Below, piece by piece: positions 4,634 through 23,782 of a stretch of DNA of 64,000 nucleotides; positions within the stretch are counted from its first letter, which is position 1, and each line of letters starts with the position of its first letter. The notes under the pieces are model-generated. The model was not told where the DNA came from, searched no databases, and was given only the letters and a program-made list of their open reading frames with translations. This DNA is from Marilutibacter spongiae (GTDB taxonomy: Bacteria > Pseudomonadota > Gammaproteobacteria > Xanthomonadales > Xanthomonadaceae), in the NCBI RefSeq assembly GCF_014145325.1, contig NZ_JACHTF010000007.1, positions 1 through 64,000 of the forward strand. Reading direction: 5' to 3'. A program made the translations under genes and the position numbers.

Positions 4634-7116
4634 TGCGATGTCCCGGTGGCGGCGGATGCGCGCGCGCGCGGCAGGAGCTCGAGCGTCGAGGCGGGTACGC
4701 CGCCCGCATCGCCCATCTCGAGGAAATCGACGTCGCGGAACGGTTCGACCATGTCGTCGTAGTGGCCGCTCAGCAGGTGGCCCGACTGGCCGGTGGAGTT
4801 CATGTACAGGTGGCGAACCCGGGCGGGCGTCATCGCGAACAGCTGCCGGAAGCCGGCGCCGAAGTCCTGGACGTAGCCGTTGCCCGATGGGTCGGGCTCG
4901 AAGCTCGCGACGTTGACCGTGTCCGGCGTGCCGCCGGCGCCGATGCGGCGTTCGAACACGCGCTTGAGCAGGCGACTGTCGCTGAACGGCACGTGGCGGT
5001 AAAGCGTGCGATGCACGTCGCCCCAGGCCCAGTCGTCCATCGAGTCGTCCGACTCCAGCTTGGCCAGCTCGCGCAGGGCCCGGTCCAGGGCGACGTCGAT
5101 GACTTCGTCGCAGGATTCCCGCTCGTCGGGCGTGCCGCGGTTGTCGCACCACGCACCGGTGGGATCGTCGAGCATCTGGCGAAGCGCCTGCGGTCCGACG
5201 GACTGCGCGAGCGCCTGCAGGACGCGGCGCTCCTGGGCGGCGTTCCAGTAGCCGCGCGTATCGTCGGCCAGGAGCGTCTTTCGGACCTGTCGCGTCCACT
5301 CGTTGAATATCGTCGCTGCCGGGCTGGCGGCATCCATCGACCCGTTCCACTCGCGAAGGTGGGCGAACGCGGTGCGTTGGGCGTCGTTGTTGGGTTCGTG
5401 CTCGAGCAGCCGGGCCAGCAGCGCGAGGGCCGGCTCGCTGTGCTCGTCGGCCTGGATGCGCGCCATCGTCGACAGGTCCACCGGCTTGCCCGCGCCGATG
5501 GCCTCCTCCAGCAGCAGCGTGATGCGGTCGGCGCGCCCCGGGGGCGCCCAGTCCTTGGAGATCAGGTAAGGATAGGCCGCATCCACGGGCTTGTTGTTCG
5601 CCGACACCAGGAAGCCACTGGGCGGGTTGTAGGCGCGCGGGAGCGCCTCGAACGGTACGTGCCCGGTCCAGTCGTGGGCATCGGTCCAGCCCGGGACGGG
5701 GATCGTGCCGTCGCCTTCGCTGCGCACCGGTATGCGCCCGGCCGAAAGCATGCCGATGTTGCCGTGGCGGTCGGCGTAGAGCATGTTCAACGCGGGCACC
5801 ACGTGGTGGCGCAGCGCCTCCTCGAAGTCGCTCCAGTCGCTGGCATAGTTCAGCCGCAGGAACGATTCGTACGAAGTGTCGTCGTCGTCGAGGCCCGTCC
5901 AGCGCAAGGCCGCGGGCTGGCCAAGGGCCTGGAACAGGTCGCTGACGATGGGCCCGTGGCGCGAGGCGCGGACCCGTATCTCCACCGGTCGCAAGGGGCC
6001 GCGGAGCTGCTCGGGGAAGTCCTGTCGCACCTGGATCGACTCAGTGCGCGACTGGAAGCGCAACCAGGCCTCGCCCGCGCGGTACTGCGTGGGATCGTCG
6101 GTCCTGGGCTGCTCGAAATAGAGGTCCTGCACGTCGGCCATCAGGTTCGTGCCGCCCCATGCGATCGACTGGTTGCGCCCGAAGATGACCACCGGCAGGC
6201 CGACGAGGGTGGCCCCGGAGGCGTCGAGCCGGTCGCCCTTGAGCGACGCCATGTACCACAGGGACGGGATCTGCAGGCCGAGGTGCGGATCGTTGGCCAG
6301 CAACGCTCCAGCGCCGGTCACCCGGCCCGATACCGCCCAGGCATTGCTGCCGACGAAGCGCCCGCCGATGCGCAGCTCTTCCTCGAGGGAGGCCTGGAAA
6401 CCGGACATCCGCGCATAGGCATCGACGTCGCCGGGCGCCAGCACGAGCTGCGACGTGGCGCCGGAGGCTTCGTACTCGGGGAACAGCAGCGCCATGCGTC
6501 GCGCGTCGAAGGCCTGGCCCGCCACCAGGCGCTCGAGTTCACGCGACTGGTTGCCGGCGAGGTTGAGCGCGAACACCTTGGCCCAGGCCAGCGAATCGTA
6601 GACGGTCCAGGGCTCGGGCTCGATGCCGAGCAGGAGGAACTCCGGTGGCAGGGGATGCCCGGACGCCAGGTACTGGTTGACGCCATCGGCGTAGGCCTGC
6701 AGCGACGCACGCGCCTCACCACCGAGCGAAGACCACGATGCATGGGCCGCGCGCTCGAGCCCCAGGGTGCGGAACCAGATGTCCTGCTGCACGCTCTGCT
6801 TGCCGAACACCTCGCTCAGGCGTCCGCCGGCGATGCGGCGCTGGAGTTCGAGTTGCCAGAGGCGATCCTGCGCGTGCGCGTATCCGAGCGCGAAGAACGC
6901 GTCGTGGTCGCTGGCGGCGGTGATGGTGGGGACGCCATGGCGGTCGCGCTCGACGACGACCCGTGAGCGGAGGCCCTCCACGCTCGCCTGCCCCTCGACG
7001 AGCGGCAGGCTCCTGGCGAGGAGCCAATAGCCGTATCCGATGGCCAACAGCGCAGGCAGGACGACGAGCAACACCAGTCGAACGACCAACGGATACCTAC
7101 TGTACATCCTGTACAT
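4630..7116 (-). CDS. Penicillin acylase family Ntn-hydrolase, membrane-anchored or exported (PvdQ-like)
   Basis: 828 residues from the chosen ATG at 7116, which has a strong AGGGAAGGGG site; an in-frame ATG at 7179 would add 21 residues before the membrane segment and looks less likely. Residues about 10-35 are one hydrophobic signal or anchor helix. The alpha-chain motif RDRHGVPTI and the AHAQDRLWQLELQRR stretch follow. The beta-chain nucleophile is Ser257 in GSNAWAVSG, followed by NDPHLGLQIP, as in self-cleaving penicillin acylases, acyl-homoserine-lactone acylases and PvdQ. Such enzymes remove an N-acyl group in the periplasm. The position immediately upstream of a PvdE-type exporter and an NRPS resembles the pyoverdine arrangement. 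The substrate cannot be read from the sequence; acyl-homoserine lactone or antibiotic hydrolysis remains possible. Confidence 0.9.
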   Translation of the reverse strand: MYRMYSRYPLVVRLVLLVVLPALLAIGYGYWLLARSLPLVEGQASVEGLRSRVVVERDRHGVPTITAASDHDAFFALGYAHAQDRLWQLELQRRIAGGRLSEVFGKQSVQQDIWFRTLGLERAAHASWSSLGGEARASLQAYADGVNQYLASGHPLPPEFLLLGIEPEPWTVYDSLAWAKVFALNLAGNQSRELERLVAGQAFDARRMALLFPEYEASGATSQLVLAPGDVDAYARMSGFQASLEEELRIGGRFVGSNAWAVSGRVTGAGALLANDPHLGLQIPSLWYMASLKGDRLDASGATLVGLPVVIFGRNQSIAWGGTNLMADVQDLYFEQPRTDDPTQYRAGEAWLRFQSRTESIQVRQDFPEQLRGPLRPVEIRVRASRHGPIVSDLFQALGQPAALRWTGLDDDDTSYESFLRLNYASDWSDFEEALRHHVVPALNMLYADRHGNIGMLSAGRIPVRSEGDGTIPVPGWTDAHDWTGHVPFEALPRAYNPPSGFLVSANNKPVDAAYPYLISKDWAPPGRADRITLLLEEAIGAGKPVDLSTMARIQADEHSEPALALLARLLEHEPNNDAQRTAFAHLREWNGSMDAASPAATIFNEWTRQVRKTLLADDTRGYWNAAQERRVLQALAQSVGPQALRQMLDDPTGAWCDNRGTPDERESCDEVIDVALDRALRELAKLESDDSMDDWAWGDVHRTLYRHVPFSDSRLLKRVFERRIGAGGTPDTVNVASFEPDPSGNGYVQDFGAGFRQLFAMTPARVRHLYMNSTGQSGHLLSGHYDDMVEPFRDVDFLEMGDAGGVPASTLELLPRARASAATGTSQ

Positions 7117-7537
7117 GCCCCTTCCCTGATGTCCTAGCTTCGCATGCCGCGATCCCGGATGGGAAGAGCGCGGCGCCACCTGCCATCACTGGCGGGCACC
7201 ACGACCAACCGACCCGGGGCTTCCCTCGCGATCCACCGATGCCGCCGGATCGCGACGCTTCCGTCGCCATCGGTCCGCATCAACATACGCCCCTTGGATG
7301 ACACACTATTACAGATCCGGCGTATTCGAAAGCGGGGAATCGGCGCGTCCTCCGTTCAGCCTGTCGCGCACGGCACGGGACCGCGGGTGGTGAATCCGTG
7401 TCCACCCTTGGAGTCTCGTGTTCCGCAGCCAGGACGAACGCGGGAAGCGCCCGCGGGGGGACACGACGCGACCCGCGGCGGGACGGCGTGCCCGGGCCGG
7501 GCCCGCTGCGCGGCCGTTGCGGGACGGTTGGGCGCGT
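7117..7537. other. 421-bp intergenic region between acylase gene and copper island
   Basis: No convincing gene. Open frames here are short, arginine-rich and lack ribosome binding sites. The stretch must hold the promoter of the acylase-exporter-NRPS run, and an AT-richer patch with TGTAATAG on the minus strand near 7305 is a weak candidate, about 190 bases from the ATG. A GGGTGG/CCACCC hairpin near 7384-7407 lacks a T tract. Confidence 0.5.
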
Positions 7538-7996
7538 TCAGTCTTCCGGCTGCGCTTCAAGGTCCCGGATCAGGGCCTTCATTTCGTCGATCTCGCGGAC
7601 CTGGGCGTCGATGATGCCGTCGGCCAGCTCGCGGACGCGCGGGTCGGAGATGTGGGCACGGCGACTGGTCAGCACGGCGATGGAATGGTGCGGGATCATG
7701 GCCCGCATGTAGGAGACGTCGTCGACGGTCTCCTGGCTGCGCACCAGCCACAACGCACCCGCGAACACGAGCGCGCTGCCCGCCAGGATCGCGATATTGG
7801 CGCGTGCGTCGTCGTACATGCCCAGCATGAACAGGAGCATCACGACGGCCATCGAGGCGCCCATCACCATGGCCATGTATGCGCGCGTCTCGCTGAAGAA
7901 CACGTGGTCCAGGCTGTAGGTGTTCAGGTACATGAGCCCGAACATGACCAGGGTGGACGTGGCGATCATGGCGGCGAATTTCGCGTACTTGTTCAT
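7538..7996 (-). CDS. DUF305-type membrane protein, copper-associated
   Basis: 152 residues. Three or four hydrophobic segments occupy residues 1-90 (for example ATSTLVMFGLMYL and GSALVFAGALWLV). The C-terminal 50 residues carry MIPHHSIAVLTS and then VRELADGIIDAQVREI, the His-His and helical pattern of the DUF305/CopM-like family, several members of which bind copper. The gene lies 26 bp downstream of the copper ATPase on the same strand and is probably the last gene of the cueR operon. A role in periplasmic copper handling is inferred from that neighbourhood; no enzyme activity is evident. Confidence 0.82.
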   Translation of the reverse strand: MNKYAKFAAMIATSTLVMFGLMYLNTYSLDHVFFSETRAYMAMVMGASMAVVMLLFMLGMYDDARANIAILAGSALVFAGALWLVRSQETVDDVSYMRAMIPHHSIAVLTSRRAHISDPRVRELADGIIDAQVREIDEMKALIRDLEAQPED

Positions 7997-20985: not shown

Positions 20986-21498
20986 ATGATAGCGGCAACC
21001 CCGCCATCGCGTACCGACATGCTCCAGGACGCCGCCGCCCACTACACCATCCTGACCGCGATGCTCGCGCCCGCGTTCTTCCTCACCGCCACCGCGTCGT
21101 TGCTGATGTCGGCGAACGCGCGCCTGGCCCGCGTGATCGACCGGGCGCGGACGCTCCTGCAGGAGCTGGAGAGCGCATCGGATGAGCAGGAGCTTCGCAG
21201 GATCGAAAGCCAGATCGCCATCCAGCGGCGGCGCAGCCGGATCACGCTGTATGGCGGCCAGCTCCTGTACATCGCCGTCAGCTGCTTCGTCGGCACCAGC
21301 CTGACCGTGGCCGCGGACGCCTTCCTGGGATACCGCTTCGTGTCCGCGCCCACGGCGCTCGCGGCCCTGGGCGTGACCATGCTGCTGGCGGCGAGCGTGC
21401 TGCTCGCCTACGAGTCGAGCCTGGCCGTGCGCGTCATCAACGACGAAATGGACCACGGCCACGCCCGGGCCACGGCCCGGCGGACCCGCGGACGCTGA
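20986..21498 (+). CDS. DUF2721 membrane protein
   Basis: 170 residues from the ATG at 20986; a second in-frame ATG at 21019 would give 159 residues. The family signature is visible in [29 protein letters not shown], followed by a charged coiled stretch ([19 protein letters not shown]) and two further hydrophobic segments ([18 protein letters not shown] and [20 protein letters not shown]). The function of DUF2721 proteins is unknown. No operon partner is evident: fdxA follows end to end on the other strand. Confidence 0.8.
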
Positions 21499-21503
21499 TC
21501 GGG

Positions 21504-21830
21504 CTAAAGGGACCGGCCGAACACGATCGCGAACTTGCCGGGGCGCCCTTCCCACTTGGCCGCATCCGCCGGCGGCTCGCCCTTGCGGGTGATCACGGGT
21601 GCGTGCGCCGACTGCTCGGCGGCGAACGCGATCCAGGGCCCCAACGCGTCCTCGTCGTCGCGCTGGATCGCCTCGACGGGACACTCGGGTTCGCAGACCC
21701 CGCAGTCGATGCAGGCCTCCGGGTCGATGACCAGCATCGCGTCGAGCTCGTGGAAGCAGTCCACCGGGCAGACCTCCACGCAGTCCATGTACTTGCAGCG
21801 GATGCAGTTGTCGGTGACGACGTAGGTCAT
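21504..21830 (-). CDS. fdxA: Seven-iron ferredoxin FdxA
   Basis: 108 residues. The first half has two Cys clusters, [18 protein letters not shown] and [12 protein letters not shown], which provide the [3Fe-4S] and [4Fe-4S] ligands of the Azotobacter FdI type. The C-terminal 50 residues ([16 protein letters not shown]) form the usual FdxA extension. It is a low-potential soluble electron carrier. The start lies in a short divergent intergenic region shared with the GntR gene, so that regulator may also affect fdxA. Confidence 0.93.
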
Positions 21831-21843
21831 GAGCGGGAGCGCG

Positions 21844-21891
21844 TTGCATTGATTGTCCGCTGATGTTGTCTGACAATATCACGCAATGCAA
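21844..21891. promoter_or_regulatory. Nested inverted repeats between fdxA and gntR, probable GntR operator
   Basis: The inner site is a perfect dyad TTGTC-T-GACAA (21866-21876). It sits within a wider inverted repeat, TTGCATTG (21844-21851) and CAATGCAA (21884-21891); the right arm covers the gntR ATG. A further TTGTC half-site lies at 21853-21857. FCD-type GntR regulators typically bind short dyads of this form. Confidence 0.65.
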
Positions 21892-22581
21892 GCCGCCACG
21901 CCCAAGCCAGGAACCGCCACCGCCATCGCTGCGGTCGAACCACCGTCGGCCGTGGACGCGGTCGTCGACGCCATCACCCGTGCCGTCCGCGACGGCCAGT
22001 TCGTTCCGGGACAGCGCCTGGTCGAGCTGGACTTCGCTCGTCGGCTGGGGGTCTCGCGATCTTCGGTACGCGAGGCGTTCCAGCGACTGGTCGCCGACGG
22101 GCTGCTCGCCGCGATACCCAACCGCGGGGTCACCATCCGCCAGCTGTCGCGCGAGGAAGTCGAGGATTGGTTCGAGGTCCGGATCGCGCTCGAATCGCTC
22201 GCCATCCGCAAGGCCACGCCCGTACTCGCGGGCGATCCGGCGGTCCTGTACTTGCTTCTCGATGCCATGGACGAAGCGGTCGGCGATGGCGACATCCGTC
22301 GCTACTCGGACCTCAACCGCGAACTGCATGAACGCTGCACGCGCGCTGCCGGCAACCCCCATCTGGCCACCCTCCTCGAGCGGCTCGGCCATTCGATCCA
22401 CGGGCTGCAGTTCCGCTTGATGGTCGAGCCCCGCAAGGCCTTCGACACGCATGCGCAGCACCATCGGCTCGTGCAGGCCATCCTCGCGAACGACGCGGAC
22501 GCTGCAGAAGGCGCGGTGCGCGCCCACCTGGAAACCACGCGGCGCCTGATCCAGGCCCTGCCCGACCACCACTTCGCCTGA
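21886..22581 (+). CDS. GntR-family transcriptional regulator, FCD/FadR-type
   Basis: 231 residues. The winged helix spans residues about 20-90: [32 protein letters not shown], then [10 protein letters not shown]. The C-terminal FCD effector domain has [24 protein letters not shown] and [19 protein letters not shown], where His and Asp residues usually bind a metal and a carboxylate ligand. It precedes the deiodinase-like flavoprotein by 19 bp on the same strand, so it is probably an autoregulator of that pair. The effector is unknown. Confidence 0.9.
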
Positions 22582-22600
22582 CACCCGGAAGGACACGCCG

Positions 22601-23290
22601 ATGCCCGCTGCCCCGACCCACGACTACGTGCCCATTCCCCTGCCCGACTACGAGGAGCTGCCGCTCGATGCGATGCGCGCCAACGCGCTGGCCTTCCATG
22701 CACGCATGCGCACGCGCCATAGCGTGCGCGACTTCGACAGTCGACCGGTGCAGCGCGACATCATCGAAACCTGCCTGCGCGCCGCGGGCACCGCCCCCAA
22801 TGGCGCCAACCACCAGCCCTGGCATTTCAGCGTCATCGGCGACGCCGGCATGAAGCGCCGGATCCGCGAGGCCGGCGAGCGTGAGGAGCGTGCGTTCTAC
22901 GAGGGCAAGGCGGGAGAGGAATGGCTGGACGCCCTGAAGCCGCTGGGGACTGACGCCGACAAGCCCTTCCTGGAAGAAGCGCCCTGGCTGATCTGCATTT
23001 TCGGCGAGCGCAAGAGCGTCTCGGCGGACGGCGTGCTGCGCAAGAACTACTACGTGCCCGAGTCGGTGAGCATCGCCACCGGCTTCCTGATCGCCGCGCT
23101 CCACCATGCCGGGCTGGCCACGCTCACGCATACGCCCAACCCGATGAACTTCCTCAACGAAGTCTGCGGGCGGCCGGCGCACGACAAGGCGTACATCCTG
23201 CTGGTGGTGGGCTACCCCAGGGCCGGTGCGACCATTCCCCGGCATGCGACCGAGAAGCGGTCGCTGGAAGAGATCGCCAGCTTCTTCTGA
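22601..23290 (+). CDS. Nitroreductase-superfamily flavoprotein resembling iodotyrosine deiodinase
   Basis: 229 residues. The FMN-binding motif RHSVRDFD (residues 40-46) and [11 protein letters not shown] are those of the nitroreductase fold. Beyond that the sequence follows iodotyrosine deiodinase: the active-site lid EREERAFY...W...[10 protein letters not shown], then [22 protein letters not shown] and [17 protein letters not shown]. The lid residues that hold the amino-acid zwitterion in human IYD (Glu157, Tyr161, Lys182) align with Glu96, Tyr100 and Lys121 here, with the same spacings of 4 and 21. The family reductively removes halogen from halotyrosines with NADPH-derived electrons. Activity on iodo- or bromotyrosine is therefore plausible but unproven; a generic nitroreductase is the alternative. 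Confidence 0.85.
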
Positions 23291-23296
23291 TGGGCT

Positions 23297-23782
23297 TCAG
23301 CCTGCTCGGGGCTTGCCGCGCTTGGCCCTGAAGTAGGCGGTCAGCCGCGCACCCGCCTCCTCGCCCAGCACGCCACCCGCCGCCTCGACGCGGTGGTTGT
23401 GCCGCGGATCGGCCAGCAGGTCGAACACGCTGCCCGCCGCCCCCGTCTTGGGATCACTGGCGCCGTAGACGACGCGCGCGACGCGCGCGTGGACCATCGC
23501 CATCGCGCACATCGCACAGGGCTCGAGGGTCACGTAGAGCGTACTGCCTAGCAGGCGGTGGTTGCCCAGGCGCCGCCCGGCCTGGCGCATGGCGACGATC
23601 TCGGCATGCGCGGTGGGGTCGTGCTCGGTGATGTTGCGGTTCCAGCCCTCGCCCAGCACCTCGCCCGTGTCCGAGACCAGCACGGCGCCGACGGGGATCT
23701 CGTCGTCCTCGCGTTCCGCCCGCGTGGCCAGGGCCAGGGCATGGCGCATCCAGCGTTCGTCTTGGGTCATGCGCTCAGTCAT
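23297..23782 (-). CDS. tadA: tRNA-specific adenosine(34) deaminase
   Basis: 161 residues from the ATG at 23782, which overlaps the upstream hydrolase stop by eight bases; an ATG at 23770 would give 157 residues. The catalytic zinc site is PTAHAEI (His and Glu) and PCAMCAMAM (two Cys). VGAVLV and DPKTGAAGSVFDLL are conserved TadA features. It converts the wobble adenosine of tRNA-Arg(ACG) to inosine and is normally essential. Confidence 0.94.
   Translation of the reverse strand: MTERMTQDERWMRHALALATRAEREDDEIPVGAVLVSDTGEVLGEGWNRNITEHDPTAHAEIVAMRQAGRRLGNHRLLGSTLYVTLEPCAMCAMAMVHARVARVVYGASDPKTGAAGSVFDLLADPRHNHRVEAAGGVLGEEAGARLTAYFRAKRGKPRAG

Follow-up and report, generated by a model that had tools for sequence, protein, structure and literature searches.

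In iodotyrosine deiodinase (IYD; DEHAL1 in mammals), a glutamate, a tyrosine and a lysine of the lid bind the zwitterion of the substrate. A thyroid ferredoxin was reportedly linked to the enzyme in a proposal of about 1981, and we know of no settled natural reductant for IYD; to our knowledge, the bacterial enzymes likewise have no settled role, inducer or natural electron donor. Part of the text of one review describes IYD as already known in bacteria (PMC13078365), and part of another states that human IYD debrominates bromotyrosine too (PMC4708624). The surroundings of the gene are newer: we found no open-licence paper joining "iodotyrosine" with "GntR", and in our searches of the open-licence literature we did not come across the FCD-type regulator and its predicted operator, the island with the ferredoxin gene or the Nevskia gene row described below. 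The extra ferredoxin gene, the predicted operator, the likely transfer and the row of genes in Nevskia go beyond the preliminary description of this DNA.

In the window, that is, the whole 64,000-nucleotide stretch analyzed, the iyd gene occupies positions 22601..23290 of the forward strand and encodes 229 amino acids from an ATG start. It is present as a single copy in the host genome (3.63 Mb, 52 contigs), whose nearest named relatives by this locus are Lysobacter aestuarii and L. penaei, with IYD identities of 93% and 85%, respectively. The protein belongs to the nitroreductase superfamily (Pfam PF00881, 72.4 bits against a cut-off of 23.5), and its AlphaFold2 model had a mean pLDDT of 89. 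When it was compared with PDB chains by phmmer, the top matches were 5ko7, 5ko8 and 5krd (E 6.9e-59; entry name "Nitroreductase"), which we take to be the IYD of Haliscomenobacter hydrossis, with further matches to 3tnz (1.4e-43) and 3gb5 (2.7e-43), presumably mouse IYD, to 4ttb/4ttc (5.8e-40), presumably human IYD, and to 6pz0, named "iodotyrosine deiodinase" (2.6e-24). The first plain nitroreductase appeared only at 7.9e-14, at least ten orders of magnitude behind the IYD entries. This ranking bears out the preliminary description, which had placed an IYD-like enzyme at these positions, and the protein is almost certainly a member of the IYD class.

Against 5ko7, 91 of 193 aligned residues (47%) were identical, and the Glu/Tyr/Lys triad was the same, as were T176 and T178. 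The presumed Haliscomenobacter enzyme was compared by protein only; beside iyd here stand a GntR regulator with a predicted operator and a second ferredoxin gene. The triad and five of eight FMN contacts are shared with mammalian IYD, from which the window's protein differs in being a bacterial ORF without the membrane anchor region, in its regulation and setting, and in residues H40 and N67.

The gene upstream, gntR (21886..22581, forward strand), encodes a 231-residue FCD-type GntR regulator in which both Pfam domains scored above their cut-offs (GntR, 51.5 bits against 27; FCD, 80.5 against 24.3). The AF2 model had a mean pLDDT of 91, and residues N144, H148, H192 and H214, which we take to be the usual FCD metal site, were invariant in 20 of 20 cases. 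No named NCBIfam regulator model was above its cut-off for this protein, the best being phnR_burk at 129.2 against 271.5 bits. Between the end of gntR at 22581 and the start of iyd at 22601 there are 19 bp, so the ORF coordinates agree with the spacing given in the preliminary description.

We then compared 81 IYD loci, comprising our own and the best 80 of at least 583 relatives, in which GntR homologues were identified by tblastn at E 1e-5. A homologue lay upstream of IYD and co-oriented with it in 18 loci, from Lysobacter, Mesorhizobium, Phyllobacterium, Nitratireductor, Thalassospira, a Rhodospirillales MAG and Maritalea; it was divergent in two, from Sphingopyxis (L050) and Nevskia (L051), and the remaining 61 had no such GntR. 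Two genes stand between gntR and iyd in L018 and L019. The distances of the IYD and GntR proteins co-vary over 14 loci (r 0.87, permutation p 0.0001), a correlation to which shared organismal history contributes. In an even sample of the phylum, IYD was found in 45 of 398 genomes, our own included (E 1e-45); 45 loci were read from the other 44 genomes, several of them repeating loci of the 81-locus set, and a GntR was nearby (within up to 8 kb) in three. A search of 297 genomes that started from GntR matched three at E 1e-50, each of them with IYD adjoining. It was rejected as independent support for the pair: all three genomes were already among the IYD loci and at most nine candidates were scored per genome, so this search adds nothing.

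A predicted operator, TTGTCTGACAA, lies at 21866..21876, 9 bp before the ATG of gntR and 35 bp before that of fdxA, the divergent ferredoxin gene discussed below. It is a perfect palindrome of what is presumably the FadR type, the operators of the FadR group having the form TNGTNNNACNA. A left half-site, TTGTC, is found 13 bp before the operator, at 21853..21857. The regulator is like the FCD-type proteins of the FadR group in its GntR and FCD domains and in this operator form, but unlike them in the tandem arrangement at 13-bp pitch and in reaching no named NCBIfam model.

Of the 18 co-oriented loci in this set (our own and the top 80 of at least 583 relatives), 17 carry the strict site TTGTCNGACAA beside gntR or iyd. 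It precedes gntR in Lysobacter, iyd in Mesorhizobium, Phyllobacterium and Nitratireductor, and both genes in six Thalassospira-type loci and Maritalea. The one co-oriented locus without it, L005, carries TTGTAGGACAA and TTGTTAGACAA. All 26 strict sites fell within 4,518 bp of regulatory stretches, which were fixed after a first look; the remaining 214,635 bp of these loci contained none. None of the 61 GntR-less loci of the same set has TTGTCNGACAA within 250 bp of IYD; two of them carry it 1.1 and 4.3 kb away. The strict site is also absent from both divergent loci; L050 carries TTGACAGACAA, and L051 has a run at 13-bp pitch, TTGTAGTGCAA/TTGTAGGGCAA/TTGTCTGGCTA. G160, the fourth Lysobacter-type genome, has the strict site as well. 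At all 14 sites on the IYD side, a second copy of the right half GACAA follows at a distance of 13 bp and matches in at least 4 of 5 letters. In each of the three Lysobacter loci tested, a perfect left half TTGTC (5 of 5 letters) stands 13 bp ahead of the operator; a full half-site at this pitch was present at one of eight gntR-side sites outside Lysobacter. The tandem sites at 13-bp pitch between fdxA and gntR are the predicted operator of GntR. A scan of 21400-23450 for sigma-70 promoters gave no match.

The link between GntR and iyd, which had first been proposed from the adjacency of the two genes, stands up well, since Lysobacter and Alphaproteobacteria share the pair and, with it, a specific predicted operator. 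We predict with high confidence that GntR controls iyd. A wider GntR regulon was considered and rejected: TTGTCNGACAA occurs three times in the host genome, against four times for a reversed control pattern. Of the other two sites, one coincides with the very beginning of a rho-like ORF and one falls within a nuoE-like ORF (both named from their translations), and the L. aestuarii and L. penaei genomes have near-identical sites at contig positions that possibly correspond to the rho start. Eight other genomes had 2-11 TTGTCNGACAA sites, against 1-27 for controls.

The ferredoxin gene fdxA lies on the reverse strand at 21504..21830, divergent from gntR and separated from it by a 55-bp gap with the operator inside. 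Its 108-residue product is an FdxA-type ferredoxin (NCBIfam FdxA_Protbact; FdxA equivalog, 142.2 bits against a cut-off of 135). Unlike housekeeping FdxA, it is an extra copy tied to IYD, with 57% identity to the housekeeping protein; the gene for the latter was found in six of the seven genomes of the genus, the exception, G160, being 85% complete. IYD, gntR and the second fdxA occur together in four of the seven, and the second fdxA was present in 4/4 IYD-positive and 0/3 IYD-negative genomes (Fisher p 0.029); these represent one gain and not seven independent cases, so the fdxA link within the genus rests on a single gain.

The three genes are flanked on the left by a small ORF (21075..21498, forward strand) and bordered on the right by tadA (23297..23770, reverse strand). 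In the IYD-negative genome G019, PEP-synthase-like, mscS-like and oligoribonuclease-like genes, the small ORF, tadA and guaA are found in kept order, with ≈40 bp from the small ORF to tadA, and fdxA, gntR and iyd are missing together. The empty site was not clean in the other two IYD-negative genomes, G141, which has ≈1.8 kb from the oligoribonuclease gene to tadA, and G119, where only tadA was found, on a short contig. In the family, IYD was found in 21 of 198 genomes, our own included (E 1e-20). The IYD tree, which was made without one further family match that had no locus, placed the Lysobacter rows inside an otherwise alphaproteobacterial clade (100/96), and 16 loci from other genera of the family formed a separate clade (100/99). 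The island FdxA fell outside the native Lysobacter FdxA clade (100/100), and its weak sisters were FdxAs of another class of the phylum (87/69). These sister rows were the best matches of the island protein, and one genome of its own order, with 62% identity, was left out of the tree, so fdxA is likely, though not proven, to come from Alphaproteobacteria. On these sequence comparisons, fdxA, the operator, gntR and iyd are best explained as a horizontally acquired island, and the island hints at how IYD-type enzymes get switched on and fed electrons.

A related gene row was found on the Nevskia MAG contig JAQGNS010000356.1 (L051), consisting of IYD (5995-6663), an Fpr-like reductase (6660-7469), FdxA (7514-7843) and an aromatic aminotransferase (from 7840). 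The first and last joints are ATGA overlaps, and the middle one is 44 bp. The Fpr-like protein scored 156.9 bits with the NCBIfam ferredoxin-NADP reductase model, below the cut-off of 390, while FdxA was over its cut-off and the aminotransferase reached 451.9 against 377 with the aromatic amino acid transaminase model. The fpr gene of the row was the only one found in this MAG. An fpr gene transcribed divergently from gntR or iyd is present in eight Thalassospira-type loci; it was the sole fpr match in each of six genomes tested and, as the sole copy found, may be a housekeeping gene. A further genome, G597, has two fpr genes, one of them transcribed divergently from a nitroreductase-IYD pair. 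The second nitroreductase gene of that locus (L208, 6177-8676) lies directly 5' of IYD.

In this light, FdxA is predicted, with slightly less than even confidence, to be the electron donor to IYD. More tentatively, we propose a dedicated chain from NADPH through ferredoxin-NADP reductase and FdxA to IYD, which would be switched by a halotyrosine-sensing FCD repressor through tandem TTGTCNGACAA sites. Judged by gene content, the Nevskia row, which ends in the aromatic aminotransferase, would encode the whole of the proposed chain, and Lysobacter (fdxA) and Thalassospira (fpr) would have parts of it. If true, it would name the natural reductant of IYD. The same enzyme and regulator could also be accompanied by a ferredoxin that is only a passenger, IYD being reduced by general flavin or NADPH reductases, which we consider a serious possibility, if somewhat short of probable. 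The rarity of the ferredoxin speaks for a passenger: in the 81 loci (our own and the best 80 of at least 583), FdxA was within 6 kb of IYD only in Lysobacter and Nevskia, and it was within up to 8 kb in none of the 45 IYD loci of the even phylum sample. Moreover, fdxA is divergent from iyd and not in line with it. A passenger is, however, harder to reconcile with the joint gain and loss of the second fdxA and IYD in the genus, with the 55-bp gap and operator that fdxA and gntR have in common, and with the independent occurrence of FdxA 3' of IYD in Nevskia. Fpr was near 3 of the 45 loci of the even sample, two from Thalassospira and that of G597, representing two lineages; a fourth match, at 24%, was doubtful. 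Given the co-inherited ferredoxin and the gene order in Nevskia, the question of the reductant could be put to the test with a handful of purified proteins.

The nature of the substrate was considered from the active site. In a gapless alignment, E96 (codon 22886-22888), Y100 (22898-22900) and K121 (22961-22963) stand opposite the E, Y and K of 5ko7 and mouse IYD. The preliminary description had equated them with human Glu157, Tyr161 and Lys182; the alignment upholds this if, as we assume, human numbering is that of mouse plus four. In mouse numbering, with the FMN residues given in part of one report as the starting point of the count, they are E153, Y157 and K178 (PMC3930498). Together with T176, H177, T178 (23132-23134) and P179, they showed no variation across the 99 rows of the alignment (the window and 98 loci; 95 different), all picked by similarity to the query, so that the invariance reflects constraint inside the group and not the group's borders. 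The preliminary claim that most nitroreductases lack the triad was examined in the host genome, where it held: none of the four other PF00881 proteins has it, although the lid alignment of such distant paralogues is rough. The same part of the mouse report lists eight FMN contacts, R96, R97, S98, R100, P123, S124, T235 and R275 (PMC3930498). Five of these (R96, S98, R100, P123 and T235, the last opposite T178) are identical here. Mouse R97 is replaced by H40, with H in 79/99 rows, and S124 by N67, with N in 39/99, while R275 falls near K219/R220 with no firm alignment. Mukherjee and Rokita are said to have reported in 2015 that a single residue switches a dehalogenase to a nitroreductase; we take this residue to be the threonine corresponding to T178.

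An enzyme of the IYD fold might instead have another tyrosine analogue, such as 3-nitrotyrosine, as its natural substrate, with dehalogenation as a side activity. The Pfam name, which is merely "Nitroreductase", the departures from mouse IYD at H40 and N67, and a neighborhood in which no gene names the substrate would all suit this, but the invariance of T178 and the triad argues against it, and we consider it unlikely. An ordinary broad nitroreductase or flavin reductase next to an unrelated regulator is highly improbable: curated NCBIfam models do leave the protein unnamed (the best, BluB, gave 48.6 bits against a cut-off of 150), but IYDs top the PDB ranking, the triad is present and the gntR-iyd pair recurs with its operator.

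The locus is best read as a candidate inducible halotyrosine dehalogenation module. That the protein is an FMN-dependent halotyrosine dehalogenase and GntR a repressor released by halotyrosine or a related aromatic acid is, for the two parts jointly, probable on the evidence of the sequences. Halotyrosine is predicted as the inducer with the balance about even. GntR without inducer would occupy the tandem sites and repress gntR-iyd, and perhaps fdxA, until halotyrosine, or a derived or related aromatic acid, entered the FCD pocket and caused GntR to leave the DNA. FMN-bound IYD would then clamp the amino-acid end of 3-halo-L-tyrosine by E96, Y100 and K121, and iodide, bromide or chloride would be removed to give L-tyrosine, which would pass into ordinary metabolism. 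In what is the weaker step, electrons would flow from NADPH via ferredoxin-NADP reductase and the dedicated FdxA to the FMN of IYD. A conserved repressor with a defined predicted operator could serve as a reporter for the natural ligand.

No halogenated-substrate or uptake gene adjoins the island. In the even phylum sample, no shared partner emerged among the listed nearest-neighbor Pfam families (41 upstream and 45 downstream neighbors; best 25 of 50 and 25 of 37 families); genes there were called mechanically, as the longest ORF within 450 bp, so some neighbor calls will be wrong. A general neighborhood theme was rejected, as M32 carboxypeptidase, cytidylate kinase, transglycosylase, MutL, rhomboid, TldD and others were each confined to one lineage. 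The M32 carboxypeptidase-type gene (cluster 8; Pfam on L010 only) is upstream of IYD or gntR in L004-L007, L010, L015, L016 and L020, from Mesorhizobium, Aminobacter and Nitratireductor. In the host genome (G000), PF04820, the family of flavin-dependent tryptophan halogenases, has four strong matches (E 8e-116 to 5e-190), at C3:23364-24710, C16:16130-17512, C16:19453-20802 and C21:296541-297905, and the organism may also make halogenated aromatics. In the marine locus L055, a MarR-type regulator gene (6681-7271, reverse strand; Pfam on L055 only) is convergent with IYD and has relatives in the marine loci L045, L057, L058, L060 and L076; it may be an alternative switch for this enzyme. On a plasmid of Streptomyces sp. 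NBC_00525 (L227, 4306-5678), a gene annotated as an Lrp/AsnC regulator is divergent from an IYD homologue. On a plasmid of Deinococcus sp. AJ005 (L229, 4956-7398), an IYD homologue is followed by a gene annotated as an FAD-dependent oxidoreductase, possibly another redox partner.
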